A stretch of 22,806 nucleotides of DNA from a virus. A program made the translations under genes and the position numbers. The stretch is taken from positions 1 through 22,806 of IMG/VR virus record IMGVR_UViG_3300004097_002589; one strand, written 5' to 3'. The notes under the pieces were generated by a model. That model ran no database searches, was not told the DNA's origin, and saw only the letters and a program-made list of their open reading frames with translations. This document shows, in pieces, positions 14,163-22,806 of the stretch. Every line of letters starts with the position of its first letter. Position 1 is the stretch's first letter.

Positions 14163-14332
14163 TTAATTATATTTTTTGTTTCACCTGTGGGCATTCATGC
14201 CACTGTAAAGAAAACTATTGCAAAAAAGAAGTTGGTATCGGAATGAGTGATAAATCGACCTATTGTGCGTGTGAAAAATGCGTTTGTGCACCATCACTAA
14301 ATAAGGAAAAAAATGATAATTTGGGGAGTTAG
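14159..14332 (+). CDS. Small cysteine-rich, metallothionein-like protein
   Basis: A protein of 57 residues with nine cysteines (7, 10, 14, 16, 21, 36, 38, 41, 43) and His12 and His15. The C-terminal cluster YCACEKCVCAP (35-45) has the CxCxxCxC arrangement, and nearly the wording, of the first metal-binding stretch of bacterial SmtA-type metallothioneins. The N-terminal cluster CFTCGHSCHC (7-16) adds CxxC and CxC pairs. The start overlaps the previous stop (ATGA) and the end overlaps the carbamoyltransferase start by 20 bases, so without it there would be a 150-base gap in an otherwise gapless operon. It probably binds several Zn or Cu ions for storage, detoxification or delivery. A small zinc-finger protein is the main alternative. 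The order of clusters differs from SmtA, so homology is not certain. Confidence 0.66.
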   Translation: MINYIFCFTCGHSCHCKENYCKKEVGIGMSDKSTYCACEKCVCAPSLNKEKNDNLGS

Positions 14333-15815
14333 TGCAGATAATCACGATGCAGCAATAGCAGTTTTTACTCTAAAATCTAGAGGGTTATTAAATATACCCA
14401 CTTTAAAACTAGAATTTGCTAGTCAAACTGAAAGATTTAGCGGTATCAAAGGTGATCAAAACTTAAATAAAGAAATTATTGAATATGCTACGCAAAATTT
14501 TGGCGAACCAGAGCAAATTATCTGGCACGAAAAACCATTATTAAAGATAGCTAGGCAAATATACGCAAAAGAACCTATAAATTTATTCTGTTACCCTAGA
14601 AAGTATATAGATAAGTACTTTAATAAGCGTATTCCAATAAAATATATTAAACATCACCACAGTCATGCTGCAAATGGATACTATACAAGTAGATTTTCAG
14701 AAGCCTGTGTAGTAACTCTTGATGCTATAGGAGAGTTTGAAACATTTACTATTTGGAAAGGAACTGGAGATACGCTAGAACAGGTATATTCAGAGGGTTA
14801 TCCCCATAGTTTAGGTCTTTGGTACTCTGCTATGACTCAAAGAGTAGGGCTAAAACCCAACGAAGAAGAATATATTCTGATGGGAATGGCTGCTATTGGA
14901 GACCCAGATAGATTTTATCATCAAATAAAGCGTGATTTTTTTACTACGTACAATAACCATAATATAATTGGTATGCACCATAATATTCATCAAGGGTGTT
15001 TAGAATGGATGCCTTCTTTAGAAGAAAAAGATTATTTTGATGTAGCAGCTGCTACACAAAAAATATACGAAGAGTACTTAGAAAAAGTATTAGAGCTAGC
15101 ACTACAAATGGTTCCCTCTAAGAATATAGTATTTTCTGGAGGATGCGCCTTAAACTGTGTTGCGAATAATCTTTTATTTAAATATTTTGAAGAGGTTTGG
15201 ATTCCCCCAAATCCAGGGGACGCTGGAAATGCAATAGGAGCCGTATTAGCTAAATATAAGATTAAAATTACGCCAACAAACTACCTTGGGTATGATTTAA
15301 ATAATAAAATTGATCCTGCAGAAGTAGCAAGATATTTAAATAAGTATAAAGTGTGTGGCGTTGCAACAGGAAAAGCAGAGTTTGGTCCTAGAGCATTAGG
15401 TAATAGAAGTTTATTAGCTGATCCTCGTGTATCAGATATTAAGAGTATTGTTAACTTAGTTAAAAATAGACAAACATTTAGACCATTTGCTCCTGTTATT
15501 CTTCAAGAAGACGCAACTCAGTATTTTGAATTTGAAGGACAACAGAAAAATTATATGTATATGCAATTTACAGCTACATGTAAGTACCCAGAAAAATATC
15601 CCGGTATTTGCCATATAGACGGGACAAGTAGAGTTCAAATGGTATCTAACGATTTTGACTCGCAAATAAAAGGTGTTTTAAAAGCTTGGAAAACACTTAC
15701 TGGCTGCCCAATGCTACTTAATACTAGCTTAAATGTTAAAGGAAAGCCAATAGTAAATACAAAAGAAGACTGTAAAAAGTTTTCTGAAACATATGGAGTT
15801 AAAATTTTCTCTTAA
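14313..15815 (+). CDS. Carbamoyltransferase (NodU/CmcH family)
   Basis: A protein of 500 residues. The N-terminal half has the ASKHA/Kae1-like core of this family: SADNHDAAIAVF (7-18), the His-rich IKHHHSHAANGYY (112-124), which in relatives holds the catalytic metal site, TLDAIGE (135-141) and the phosphate-binding SGGCALNCVANN (275-286). The C-terminal YrdC-like part has FGPRALGNRS (357-366), FRPFAPV (389-395) and NTSLNVKGKPIV near 467-478. Known enzymes transfer carbamoyl from carbamoyl phosphate, through carbamoyl-AMP, to a hydroxyl group on sugars, antibiotics or, in reported phage cases, 5-hydroxymethylcytosine in DNA. It is shorter than NodU (about 560-600). AAGGAAA precedes the ATG. 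The acceptor is unknown. Confidence 0.9.
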   Translation: MIIWGVSADNHDAAIAVFTLKSRGLLNIPTLKLEFASQTERFSGIKGDQNLNKEIIEYATQNFGEPEQIIWHEKPLLKIARQIYAKEPINLFCYPRKYIDKYFNKRIPIKYIKHHHSHAANGYYTSRFSEACVVTLDAIGEFETFTIWKGTGDTLEQVYSEGYPHSLGLWYSAMTQRVGLKPNEEEYILMGMAAIGDPDRFYHQIKRDFFTTYNNHNIIGMHHNIHQGCLEWMPSLEEKDYFDVAAATQKIYEEYLEKVLELALQMVPSKNIVFSGGCALNCVANNLLFKYFEEVWIPPNPGDAGNAIGAVLAKYKIKITPTNYLGYDLNNKIDPAEVARYLNKYKVCGVATGKAEFGPRALGNRSLLADPRVSDIKSIVNLVKNRQTFRPFAPVILQEDATQYFEFEGQQKNYMYMQFTATCKYPEKYPGICHIDGTSRVQMVSNDFDSQIKGVLKAWKTLTGCPMLLNTSLNVKGKPIVNTKEDCKKFSETYGVKIFS

Positions 15816-19076: not shown

Positions 19077-20252
19077 ATGAAAAAAATTCTACTTTTGGGG
19101 AGCGGTGAGCTTGGAAAAGAGTTTACTATTAGTGCAAAGAAATATGGATGCACAGTTATTGCATGTGATTCTTACGTAGGAGCACCTGCAATGAAAGTTG
19201 CGGACGACTTTGAAGTTTTAGATATGCTTGATGCAAGTCAGCTTGAGAAAGTTATCAGTTACTATAAACCTGATTTAATTGTCCCAGAAATAGAAGCGAT
19301 CAACACGGAGTTTCTAGTAGAGAAGGAACAGCAAGGATATAAAGTTGTTCCTTCCGCTAGAGCTGTAAATCTAACTATGAACCGTGATAAAATTAGAGAT
19401 CGTGCTGTCGAACTAGGGTTAAAAACAGCTAATTTTAGATATGCTGAAAACTTAGACCAACTAGAATCGGCAGCTAGACAAATTGGCTTCCCCTGCGTTG
19501 TAAAGCCAGTAATGAGTTCTAGCGGCAAAGGTCAGATGGTAGTTGATGATCAGAATGAAATTCAAGCTGCTTGGAAATATGCTATTGATAATATGAGAGG
19601 GGATAGGCATAGAGTTATAGTTGAAGAGTTTATTGACTTTAGTTATGAAATTACTCTTCTTACAGTAAGGCAAAAAGACGGTCCTACTTTATTTTGTCCA
19701 ATCATAGAGCATGAGCAAGAAAGAGGGGATTACCAAAGAAGCTGGCAAAGTAAGCAAGAGGAAACTTTTACTAATCATATTATAGAAACTCACGCACAAG
19801 AGATGGCTAAGATTATTACAGACGATCTCGGAGGAGAGGGTATTTTTGGTGTTGAATTTTTTGTAGACATAAGTACTGATAATCCAACTGTTATCTTTAG
19901 TGAGCTTAGTCCTCGTCCACATGATACAGGACTAGTAACTTTATATACTCAAAATTTAAGTGAATTTGATTTACATGCTCGTGCAATCTTAGGGCTTCCA
20001 ATTGATGAGATAAAAATTTTAAGAGAAGGGGCAAGTCAAGTTATTTTAGCAGACTGTACAAGTCCTGACTTTATTATTACTGGTATCCCAGCCGCAATGA
20101 AAATTACAGGCGTCGATGTTAGAATTTTTGGAAAACCAGTGGCAAGGCCTAATAGAAGAATGGGAGTAGTACTAGCTCCGACTGTAGGAAAGGCTAAAAA
20201 AGCTGCTAGTAAAATTATAATTTTCGATATTAGTACGCATGATGCTCCCTAA
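19077..20252 (+). CDS. purT: Formate-dependent phosphoribosylglycinamide formyltransferase (PurT)
   Basis: A protein of 391 residues, the same length as bacterial PurT (E. coli about 392). Diagnostic stretches are [10 protein letters not shown] (6-15), VPEIEAI (69-75), VMSSSGKGQ (145-153), GDYQRSWQ (217-224), the ATP-grasp metal region [13 protein letters not shown] (277-289) and NRRMGVVLA near residue 360. The enzyme makes formyl-GAR from GAR, formate and ATP, the third step of purine synthesis, without needing formyl-folate. As a phage gene it would raise purine supply during genome replication. Several purine genes are known in other marine phages. It overlaps the next small gene by 14 bases. 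An ATP-grasp enzyme with a changed substrate is possible, but motif conservation makes true PurT more likely. Confidence 0.93.
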
Positions 20253-20484: not shown

Positions 20485-21322
20485 TTGGCTACAAACTAAT
20501 ATTAAAAAGCGAGTACAAGAACGACAGCTATCTTTAGAAGTAACTTTAACTCCCGATATAATTAGTTCTACAGACTTTAATAGTGCAGCAGATAAAGTAC
20601 TAACAGAGTTATTAGACTTATCTGCCACAGAAAAATTTTATTTAGGTTTTAGTGGGGGCGCAGACTCAGATTTTGTATTTTACAAGTTAATTGAGTGGGG
20701 TATACCTTTTGAGCCTATTATTTGTTTTTTTGGAGGAAATTCAATAGAATACCAATACGCTTTGCACACTTGTAAAAAGTTTGGGATAACTCCTTATATT
20801 CATACTTTATCTGAAAAACAATTTATACAAATATTTATGCAAAAAGTAAAACCTTGGGGAGGTGACGGACTTTACAGTATACCTAGTATGGTTTTAGCTG
20901 AGTATGCAAAAAGTAGAGACGCAAAATTATTAACTGGACAAGATTTTATAACTGGTTCCCATGATCATTGTTCTATGGGATTTAACGTTTATGACTTTTA
21001 CGCTGATATCTATGATGAGTCAATAGAAATTCCATTCTTTTTATACAATACAGATATAGTTTACCACACTATAAAAAGATTCAACCCTAATATATCGGTA
21101 GGAGAATGGAAATACGAGTTATTTGAAATTCTAGACTATAGACCTAAAATTGAGTTCCATCATCTTAGTAGAGAATGTTGGGAAGTATTAGGACCTTATT
21201 TTTCTTATGCAGCTACACATTTTAATAACGAAGGGATTGATGTAATTAATAAGGAAAAAATCTTAAGAGCATTAGAAAACACAGGAGAAAAAATAGTATT
21301 AAATGCAAGCCATACTTATTAA
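20468..21322 (+). CDS. PP-loop ATP pyrophosphatase family protein
   Basis: A protein of 284 residues. YLGFSGGADSDFVFYKL (58-74) carries the PP-loop SGGxDS motif (62-67), which binds ATP pyrophosphate in asparagine synthetases, tRNA-thiolation and tRNA-lysidine enzymes, NAD synthetase and PAPS reductases. Downstream, PIICFFGGNSIEYQYALHTCKKFGI fits the second Rossmann strand and helix, and LLTGQDFITGSHDHC (about 155-169) the third loop. There is no CxxC pair of the TtcA type and no glutaminase domain, so it is not a full asparagine synthetase. It probably adenylates a carboxyl or carbonyl group for later attack, but the substrate is unknown. It sits between purT and a fatty-acid-hydroxylase-like gene, overlapping the latter by 20 bases. 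Confidence 0.75.
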   Translation: MLTKNNWLQTNIKKRVQERQLSLEVTLTPDIISSTDFNSAADKVLTELLDLSATEKFYLGFSGGADSDFVFYKLIEWGIPFEPIICFFGGNSIEYQYALHTCKKFGITPYIHTLSEKQFIQIFMQKVKPWGGDGLYSIPSMVLAEYAKSRDAKLLTGQDFITGSHDHCSMGFNVYDFYADIYDESIEIPFFLYNTDIVYHTIKRFNPNISVGEWKYELFEILDYRPKIEFHHLSRECWEVLGPYFSYAATHFNNEGIDVINKEKILRALENTGEKIVLNASHTY

Positions 21323-21749
21323 TATTGTGATGTTTTTATCATGGACCTTTATTCTTTATTGGTTTCATAGGGGTATTCACCATATTCCTAAATTTAAAGA
21401 AATTCATCAAGATCACCATGACTATGTGACCGATTATCAACCTAAATGGAACTGGAAAAATATATTTATTTGGGTAGATACTTGGAGGAGTACTGCTGAC
21501 CAATGGGTAACAGAAGTTATTCCAACAGTAGTTTTCTGTTATATAACTGGGTATTGGTGGATAGCAATATTTTATTGGGCGTGGTCAGCAATTATTCAAG
21601 AAGTAATTGAACATAACCCTAAATTTAATATTCCATTACTGACTAGTGGGCAGTGGCATTTAGTTCACCACAGGGATTGGACTAAGAATTTTGGTATCTT
21701 CTTCTCTATCTGGGATAGAGTATTTGGTACATACGAAGCAATAAAATAA
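21303..21749 (+). CDS. Fatty acid hydroxylase superfamily membrane protein
   Basis: A protein of 148 residues; an alternative ATG at 21330 would remove the first 9. It has the full set of di-iron histidine boxes of sterol desaturase/fatty acid hydroxylases: HRGIHH (22-27), HQDHH (35-39), EH (103-104) and HLVHH (119-123). Hydrophobic segments at about 3-20 and 73-98 would be membrane helices. Relatives hydroxylate or desaturate lipids, sterols or carotenoids using O2. It is short compared with the usual 200-300 residues but keeps every box, so it may be active. It is the last gene of the long operon and directly follows the PP-loop gene. The substrate is unknown; a role on host membrane lipid or a phage-made lipid-like decoration is speculation. 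Confidence 0.8.
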   Translation: MQAILINIVMFLSWTFILYWFHRGIHHIPKFKEIHQDHHDYVTDYQPKWNWKNIFIWVDTWRSTADQWVTEVIPTVVFCYITGYWWIAIFYWAWSAIIQEVIEHNPKFNIPLLTSGQWHLVHHRDWTKNFGIFFSIWDRVFGTYEAIK

Positions 21750-21762
21750 AGGCACAATTCTG

Positions 21763-21818
21763 ACGTAGCACTTCGTTACGGCACTCCGTGCCCCGGCTGC
21801 GTCTCTACGAGACTACGT
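21763..21818. other. GC-rich branched hairpin element
   Basis: ACGTAG (21763-21768) pairs with CTACGT (21813-21818) and encloses GGCAC-TCC-GTGCC (21780-21792) and GTCTC-TAC-GAGAC (21801-21813, sharing one base with the outer stem). The 60 bases 21761-21820 contain 35 G/C, far above the surrounding AT-rich sequence. Near-copies of GCACTTCGT occur at 21768, 21781 (GCACTCCGT) and 21832 (GCACTCGT). It begins 13 bases after the hydroxylase-like stop. It could be a terminator without T-run, a structured small RNA or an inserted mobile repeat. The 5-bp, 3-base-loop arms do not fit a tRNA. Confidence 0.5.
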
Positions 21819-21848
21819 TATTCAATATGGAGCACTCGTATTAAACAG

Positions 21849-21869
21849 CTTTTCACCTACGGTGTAAAG
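21849..21869. other. Stem-loop in the 21750-22044 gap
   Basis: CTTT (21849-21852) plus CACC (21854-21857) pair with GGTG (21861-21864) plus AAAG (21866-21869), with one T/T mismatch and a TAC loop. A weaker hairpin, GCTATT (21880-21885) with AATAGC (21894-21899), follows. Neither has a T-run. The TAC loop repeats that of the hairpin at 21801-21813, so they may belong to one structured region. The rest of the gap, 21900-21950, shows nothing I can name. Confidence 0.4.
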
Positions 21870-21954
21870 TTATTCACAAGCTATTAAACATAGAATAGCA
21901 TAAATTTCTCTCACCGTCAACTACAAAAAATTACAAAACCTCTTCGATAGATTC

Positions 21955-21988
21955 CTGTAATGAAATTGTAATATAAATGTAGTATAAT
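21955..21988 (+). promoter_or_regulatory. Pho box and -10 element upstream of the phosphate transporter
   Basis: CTGTAAT (21955-21961) and TTGTAAT (21966-21972), each followed by a 4-base A/T-rich spacer, form 11-bp direct repeats like the PhoB site CTGTCAT-N4-CTGTCAT. A third, weaker unit is ATGTAGT (21977-21983). A perfect TATAAT (21983-21988) lies exactly 10 bases after the 18-bp box, the spacing known for PhoB-activated promoters, and no usable -35 hexamer is present at the normal distance. The gene driven is PiT-like, which fits phosphate control. Confidence 0.7.
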
Positions 21989-21994
21989 ACTTAT

Positions 21995-22010
21995 TATACC
22001 ACGTGGTATA
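21995..22010. promoter_or_regulatory. 16-bp perfect palindrome at the predicted transcription start
   Basis: TATACCACGTGGTATA is symmetric over all 16 bases with the CACGTG core in its centre. It begins 6 bases after the -10 box, so it would form the first bases of the transporter mRNA. It may be a repressor site that overrides PhoB activation, or a 5'-terminal RNA stem that protects the message. Confidence 0.55.
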
Positions 22011-22044
22011 CTAATTAAAATTTATATAGAAAGAAGATATTTTA

Positions 22045-22806
22045 ATGGATATGTTAACTATCTGGATGGTACTAGGCTTTTTAATGGCTGCATATAGTGT
22101 TATCGCAAATGATTCAGTGCAAACTCTTGGCACTTGGGTCGCTTCTAACCACGAACGTTTTAGTTGGACTAAGCTCTGGGCCGCCGCTTCGGCGGTTTTG
22201 CTTTGGGCGCTATGGTATGGATGGTATGTCAACGGAGGAGACATTTCATACGGACGTTTAACTAAAATTCCTTTTCAAGAGATTCAATGGTATCACGCAG
22301 CGGCTCCTGCCGTACTCCTTGTGCTAACTCGCATTGGTGTGCCAGTCTCTACATCCTTCCTTGTTCTCTCAGCTTTTGCGTCAACCTTTGTGTTGGAAAA
22401 GATGCTGATGAAATCAATCATGGGTTATGCTGTAGCCGCTGTGGCAGCTTATGCTCTTTGGCACATCATTGCTAGATTAATTAACGAAAAGAAACCTATT
22501 GGTGATCATTGGAGCCGTCCTTATTGGCGGGTAGCACAGTGGGGAACAACAGGCTTGCTATGGTGGACTTGGTTATCACACGACATGGCTAATATTGCCG
22601 TGTTTTTACCTCGTCAAGTTCCCTGGGACTTAATGATTCTTATCTCTATTGTCTTTGTAGGCGGACTTGCTTTTATGTTTAGAGAGCAGGGCGGCAAGAT
22701 TCAAAATATTGTGTTGGAAAAAAGTACCACACGATATATTAGGTCAGCTACGTTAATTGATTTAGCGTATTTTATTATTCTCTACTTCTTCAAAGAACTT
22801 AATTCA
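22045..22806 (+). CDS. PiT-family inorganic phosphate transporter, 3' end outside the window
   Basis: The 254 visible codons are open to the window edge with no stop. The first segment GFLMAAYSVIANDSVQTLGTWVAS (11-34) matches the PiT signature, in which an AND motif in the first helix is followed by GT. RIGVPVSTSFLVLSAFAS (about 96-113) matches the GLPVST region, and SHDMANIAVFLPRQV (about 179-193) is a second copy of the D-ANA-type signature. Several membrane helices are evident. Relatives carry phosphate into the cell with Na+ or H+. The start is the first ATG (22045; a second at 22051) after a weak AAGAAG. Codons are richer in G and C than in the long operon before it, suggesting later acquisition from a host. 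The PiT call is based on motifs. Confidence 0.82.
   Translation, partial: MDMLTIWMVLGFLMAAYSVIANDSVQTLGTWVASNHERFSWTKLWAAASAVLLWALWYGWYVNGGDISYGRLTKIPFQEIQWYHAAAPAVLLVLTRIGVPVSTSFLVLSAFASTFVLEKMLMKSIMGYAVAAVAAYALWHIIARLINEKKPIGDHWSRPYWRVAQWGTTGLLWWTWLSHDMANIAVFLPRQVPWDLMILISIVFVGGLAFMFREQGGKIQNIVLEKSTTRYIRSATLIDLAYFIILYFFKELNS

Follow-up and report, generated by a model that had tools for sequence, protein, structure and literature searches.

We conclude that positions 21955-21988 of the window, by which we mean the whole stretch of 22,806 bases analysed here, probably constitute a phosphate-regulated promoter, where the PhoB protein of a starved host would activate a PiT-like gene and so raise phosphate import. 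The window is a virus record with phage replication genes (a DnaB-like helicase, a DNA polymerase and a single-strand-binding protein). The original prediction of a putative PhoB-type box at this place is supported by comparative tests, namely the enrichment of such sites upstream of PiT genes, their occurrence before phage pstS genes, the spacing of their units and their repeated changes on the tree of PiT proteins.

Organization of the promoter region

The elements of the region are as follows.

21955-21972, + strand: Pho-box-like tandem repeat CTGTAAT GAAA TTGTAAT, two 7-bp units 11 bp apart (sequence, pattern and matrix scans)
21960-21965, + strand: weak -35-like hexamer ATGAAA (4/6), within the box, 17 bp 5′ of TATAAT (promoter scan)
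21977-21983, + strand: ATGTAGT, a degenerate third unit that keeps the 11-bp register and shares one base with the -10 hexamer (sequence)
21983-21988, + strand: -10 hexamer TATAAT, 10 nt beyond the box (sequence)
21995-22010, no strand assigned: perfect 16-bp palindrome TATACCACGTGGTATA, covering the presumed transcription start (sequence)
22045-22806, + strand: gene for a PiT-like predicted phosphate transporter, 254 aa up to the contig end and incomplete (ORF, profile, fold)

A Pho box comprises at least two direct-repeat 7-bp units, 11 bp apart and separated by AT-rich 4-bp spacers, and 21955-21972 has this composition. The box furthermore takes the place of the -35 element about 10 nt before the -10, as it does in E. 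coli phoA, with the weak hexamer overlapping it. The PhoB-like tandem repeats and the 10 bp between them and a perfect TATAAT are thus as originally predicted, while the accompanying claim that no -35 hexamer is present has to be relaxed: there is no full -35, but ATGAAA matches four of the six positions at the 17-bp spacing. TATAAT is separated by 56 nt from the ATG of the PiT-like ORF. The intergenic sequence before the box (21750-21954) folds somewhat better than its shuffles (z -2.2).

The palindrome over the start could be imagined as the main switch, an operator bound by a repressor from either phage or host, with the repeats secondary to it. Indeed, it is perfect over 16 bp (0.06 matches expected in the window at up to three mismatches) and sits where a bound operator would block transcription. 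However, the full palindrome is found among the compared loci in L001 and L081 only, which are the window's own DNA or a near-identical record, and it was not seen upstream of other PiT relatives. Twelve IMG/VR stretches contain it, of which one is the near-identical record and five have it inside ORFs. We set it aside as the main operator and consider such a role extremely improbable.

Other parts of the window (14313-15815, 19077-20252 and 21303-21749) hold unusual cargo, encoding a carbamoyltransferase, a PurT-like ATP-grasp enzyme and a fatty-acid-hydroxylase-domain protein. In the record behind L001, some ORFs resemble, by eye, nucleotide-sugar and glycosyl-transfer enzymes.

The PiT-like protein

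The protein encoded at 22045 is, as judged from profile and structure comparisons, a distant PiT homologue and a predicted transporter. Since phosphate transport is only a predicted activity, we name it PiT-like. A profile of 25 family members matches TmPiT at E 3e-4, and PF01384 (PHO4) is touched by 18 of the 25 aligned members at E ≤1, with a best value of 3.8e-4. The predicted model (mean pLDDT 71.5) superimposes on TmPiT (6l85) with Z 11.9 and an rmsd of 4.5 over 237 residues, the next entry scoring 6.8; since unrelated helical models may score as high as Z 13-14, we count the sequence and fold evidence together. The family thus resembles the PiT/PHO4 transporters (PF01384) by its profile match and its best fold match, whereas TmPiT has 402 residues and the full-length phage relatives about 320.

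The original prediction placed a PiT-like gene directly downstream of the box, and this holds with the qualification that the relationship is distant and that the window protein by itself matches no Pfam family. Searched singly, it gave no Pfam family at E ≤1e-3 or ≤1 and no PF01384 at E ≤10, nothing at thresholds in PHROGs or NCBIfam (one chance-level NCBIfam row lay far under the cut-off), no PDB sequence with phmmer at E ≤1 and no PDB structure with plain Foldseek at E ≤0.001. The family has at least 598 stretches in IMG/VR; tblastn of the window protein found no match in 50,697 phage records, a set from which records very near the window may be excluded.

Pattern and matrix scores of the site

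The pattern YTGTAAYN4YTGTAAY, picked after reading the sequence, has a single match in the window, with no mismatch, where 0.34 would be expected at up to one mismatch. The strict form CTGTCATN4CTGTCAT differs from the site at three positions, which is not above chance in the window. The cyanobacterial-type Pho box (tandem PyTTAAPyPyT/A) has nine matches in the window at up to two mismatches, with 14.4 expected, and none of them falls in the PiT promoter.

Two matrices were used, both trained on bacterial promoters only. The E. coli PhoB matrix consists of nine sites from seven of the eight upstreams examined, psiF having been dropped, and it is imperfect: the leave-one-out scores of its boxes run from 19.7 to -1.0, mostly 12-19, with low values for one ugpB site (3.9) and for phnC (-1.0). 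The alphaproteobacterial matrix consists of seven sites (one sequence twice) from five of eight pstS upstreams, four of the eight (L479 and L481-L483) ending at the tblastn match instead of an annotated start. The three remaining upstreams were dropped for an E. coli score below 10, so that this second matrix was chosen with the help of the first.

The expectation that the site would stand out against a PhoB matrix was borne out in part. With both strands scanned, the 21955 site is the best of the window for the E. coli matrix (12.25, or about 12.3, a value near the bottom of the range of E. coli boxes; runner-up 10.1) as well as for the alphaproteobacterial one (13.5; runner-up 11.1), and its E. 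coli score was reached in 0.2% of 3000 shuffles of the 150 bp upstream of the gene, but 73% of 60 whole-window shuffles contain a site equal to it. Taken on its own, the site is modestly above chance.

These figures bear on the view that the region is an ordinary AT-rich sigma-70 promoter beside a chance repeat, with expression independent of phosphate. ATGAAA-17-TATAAT does score 10/12, the promoter scan of the region found no excess (10 promoters for 12.0 expected from shuffles), and an equal site is frequent in shuffled windows. Against this stand the rarity of the score in the upstream shuffles and the strong enrichment of such sites across PiT upstreams as a group, described below, and we regard a chance repeat as very unlikely.

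Pho-box-like sites in front of PiT and pstS in other phages

Three further scans enlarged the set of PiT relatives, and the 130 bp upstream of each of 404 PiT loci were compared, loci with less than 130 bp upstream being excluded. Because many contigs had been fetched repeatedly, these sequences were reduced to 105 dissimilar clusters; the upstreams of other ORFs in the same loci, treated as a control, gave 1183 clusters. An E. coli matrix score of at least 11 is found in 14 of the 105 PiT clusters and in 10 of the 1183 controls (p 2.4e-10), and 40 sets of shuffled PiT upstreams gave a mean of 0.125 and a maximum of 1. With the alphaproteobacterial matrix at a score of at least 10, the counts are 23/105 and 17/1183 (p 2.4e-16). 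Four of the ten high-scoring controls turned out to be one PiT missed by the motif, two pstS genes and one phage outer-membrane protein, all of which are still included in the control counts.

Exact matches to YTGTAAYN4YTGTAAY number six, one each in six of 18 PiT-bearing records (about 1.1 Mb), all of them 66-109 bp 5′ of PiT; the reversed pattern, used as a control, matches once. Over the range of 7-40 bp, pairs of YTGT(A/C)AY units in PiT upstreams are spaced by 11, 22 and 33 bp only (nine, two and one pairs), and in the controls by 11 bp (three) and 12 bp (one). The YTGTAAY pattern having been picked after reading the upstreams, its counts and the unit-spacing count are partly circular. 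The boxes of the relatives include TGTCA versions. Furthermore, the three phage pstS genes that we found (L032, L383 and L396) are each preceded by a box, the scores being, in ascending order, 9.7, 11.0 and 16.7, and each has PiT directly downstream.

The distance of 10 nt between box end and -10 is common to the window, two other clusters, the L383 pstS promoter and E. coli phoA, and four further clusters have the same 10 nt between the box and a TTGACA-like -35 hexamer that is followed by a 17-bp spacer. This 10-nt layout, to either hexamer, occurs in 7 of the 25 clusters scoring at least 6.4; with a lenient 4-of-6 match no distance stands out, 10 nt being found three times for the -10 and four times for the -35, and 5 and 6 nt four times each. 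TAAATA, which resembles the late promoter of T4-type phages, is present in 60 of the 105 PiT upstream clusters (for example L364, L075 and L217), sometimes within the spacer of a Pho-box-linked promoter.

When 104 PiT proteins, 23 of them with a box, are placed on a tree, the distribution of the box requires 20 changes, and it is therefore not a single inherited stretch. At an alphaproteobacterial score of at least 10 the box is absent from 82 of the 105 PiT clusters; the close relative L002 is without one, as are nine rows of the 14-row clade that contains the window. For some of the boxless PiT genes, transcription may come from a gene further upstream; L032, with the order box, pstS, PiT, is an example.

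The 11-bp repeats might instead respond to another stress through another OmpR-family regulator, either a host protein or one whose gene lies in another part of the phage genome. TGTAAC-like units are also known from the sites of other members of the OmpR family, the window units read TGTAA and not TGTCA, and a phage regulator could escape notice in virus records that are mostly fragments. Yet two matrices of Pho promoters fit the window site, the same box precedes phage pstS, and relatives have TGTCA versions of it. OmpR and CpxR sites have a 10-bp period, a mismatch to the 11-bp register seen here. The OmpR/PhoB DNA-binding domain PF00486 was found in none of 25 virus records, many or most of them fragments, which also speaks against a phage-encoded regulator. 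Another member of the family is thus an improbable reader of the repeats.

The same search for PF00486 makes host PhoB the likeliest activator of the proposed phosphate-regulated promoter, and a host regulator likelier than a phage-encoded one among these often fragmentary records. The window box resembles alphaproteobacterial pstS boxes. Close to PiT, an alphaproteobacterial-type tmRNA, also matched by the permuted-tmRNA model, was found in 3 of the 13 PiT-bearing relatives searched (L042:5702-6034, L045:2386-2764 and L069:3593-3867); as a pointer to an alphaproteobacterial host this is only a hint. The PurT-like gene of the window was also tried as a guide to the host, and its matches in two cell contigs at 55-56% identity (an uncultured bacterium and a Planctomycetota MAG) were uninformative.

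An RNA hairpin in the relatives

Many relatives of the window carry, immediately 5′ of the ribosome-binding site, a 27-nt element of the form TGAGC-(5 bp)-GGTAAA-(5 bp)-AARCA. Examples are found before PiT (L060:2604-2630), before a short secreted protein (L060:1975-2001) and, on the minus strand of L383, before pstS. A search that left most of the stem open found the element in at least 120 stretches. Among the 121 matches listed, 110 lie before a PiT start and three before one that the contig end truncates, two before pstS, five before short secreted proteins and one before none of these. The short secreted protein of L374 matches a phage outer-membrane-barrel family, and that of L060 matches none.

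Folding of the element into a hairpin agrees with its variation. In 26 distinct 27-nt cores, retained from 33 distinct regex matches after exclusion of five geneless chance matches and of two PiT leaders that differed in length, the five stem pairs always form and four of them have changed on both sides; the covariation is 0.732, compared with 0.213 in shuffles, and none of 500 shuffles is as high. A long RNA alignment took in 40 of 84 leaders. When 24 large records were searched with the covariance model, which necessarily recovers the sequences it was trained on, 14 copies turned up in 12 of them; 12 copies precede PiT and two precede pstS. Among the 105 PiT clusters, 44 have the hairpin only, 17 the box only, six both and 38 neither.

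The hairpin is absent from the window (best E 0.74). Comparison of the RNA leader with Rfam gave no match in one leader at E ≤5 and none at the gathering score in 13 loci, and the upstream region of the window itself gave one chance-level match, to Clostridium-PBP, at 21.8 bits for a cut-off of 94.4. Among the papers listed by literature searches, no title or abstract opening describes an element like it.

Discussion

The mechanism that we propose for the window's promoter begins with a two-unit Pho box replacing the -35 element 10 nt 5′ of TATAAT. When the infected host is starved for phosphate, phosphorylated PhoB would occupy this box and recruit the host sigma-70 RNA polymerase, leading to transcription of the PiT-like gene at 22045. 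The product would in turn increase phosphate import, if inward transport is indeed its activity, and could thereby feed phage DNA synthesis.

In its organization the site is close to the promoters of E. coli phoA, phoE and pstS and of alphaproteobacterial pstS genes, which similarly have 11-bp repeats with AT-rich spacers. The placement of the phoA and phoE boxes was read from the E. coli sequences, and both genes are PhoB targets; phoA has the same 10-nt gap to the -10 as the window, and the phoE box, CTGTAATATATCTTTAAC, has CTGTAAT in common with it. The TGTAA unit also recurs in the pstS box of one marine member of the Roseobacteraceae, CTGTCACAAAACTGTAAC. The known proteobacterial Pho promoters nevertheless have mostly TGTCA units, whereas the window has TGTAA twice.

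A viral precedent exists in the cyanophages, where, as reported (PMC10976474), the host PhoBR controls phage genes, among them pstS of P-SSM2 and genes of S-PM2d. As described there, these are likewise lytic marine phages with a Pho box under a host two-component system; however, their box is of the PyTTAAPyPyT/A type and precedes other genes, whereas that of the window is a TGTAA-type proteobacterial box before a PiT-like gene, and binding to the cyanophage box was demonstrated by gel shift, whereas PhoB binding to the window box is a prediction. The cyanophage logic of using the host's PhoB would thus recur here, although both the box, of proteobacterial type, and the transporter differ. Genes of the PiT/PHO4 type have also been described in phage DNA, in a phage-derived pho4 clone from the Pacific chlorophyll maximum, near the alphaproteobacterium HIMB59 (2012, PMC3429862), and as pit genes of soil phages (2024, PMC10987575). 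The passages of these two papers considered here mention no Pho box on the genes, and among the papers listed by literature searches no title or abstract opening describes one on a phage PiT gene.

As a more tentative proposal, which we consider possible and still rather doubtful, uncultured marine phages may carry a phosphate-uptake regulon of their own, comprising PiT-like, PstS and small outer-membrane proteins, with two layers of control. One layer would be the box for host PhoB, and the other the covarying hairpin UGAGC-stem-GGUAAA-stem-AARCA by the ribosome-binding site, which could be a riboswitch for phosphate status or control translation by binding a protein; the first layer alone would be present in the window's phage. 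The hairpin linked to PiT and pstS genes is in any event a concrete new element that can be tested.

In conclusion, a switch of the same type is present in some distant relatives of the window's marine phage, which suggests that phosphate import is imposed on infected cells when phosphate is scarce. If this is true, marine phosphate scarcity would directly shape gene expression in some uncultured phages.
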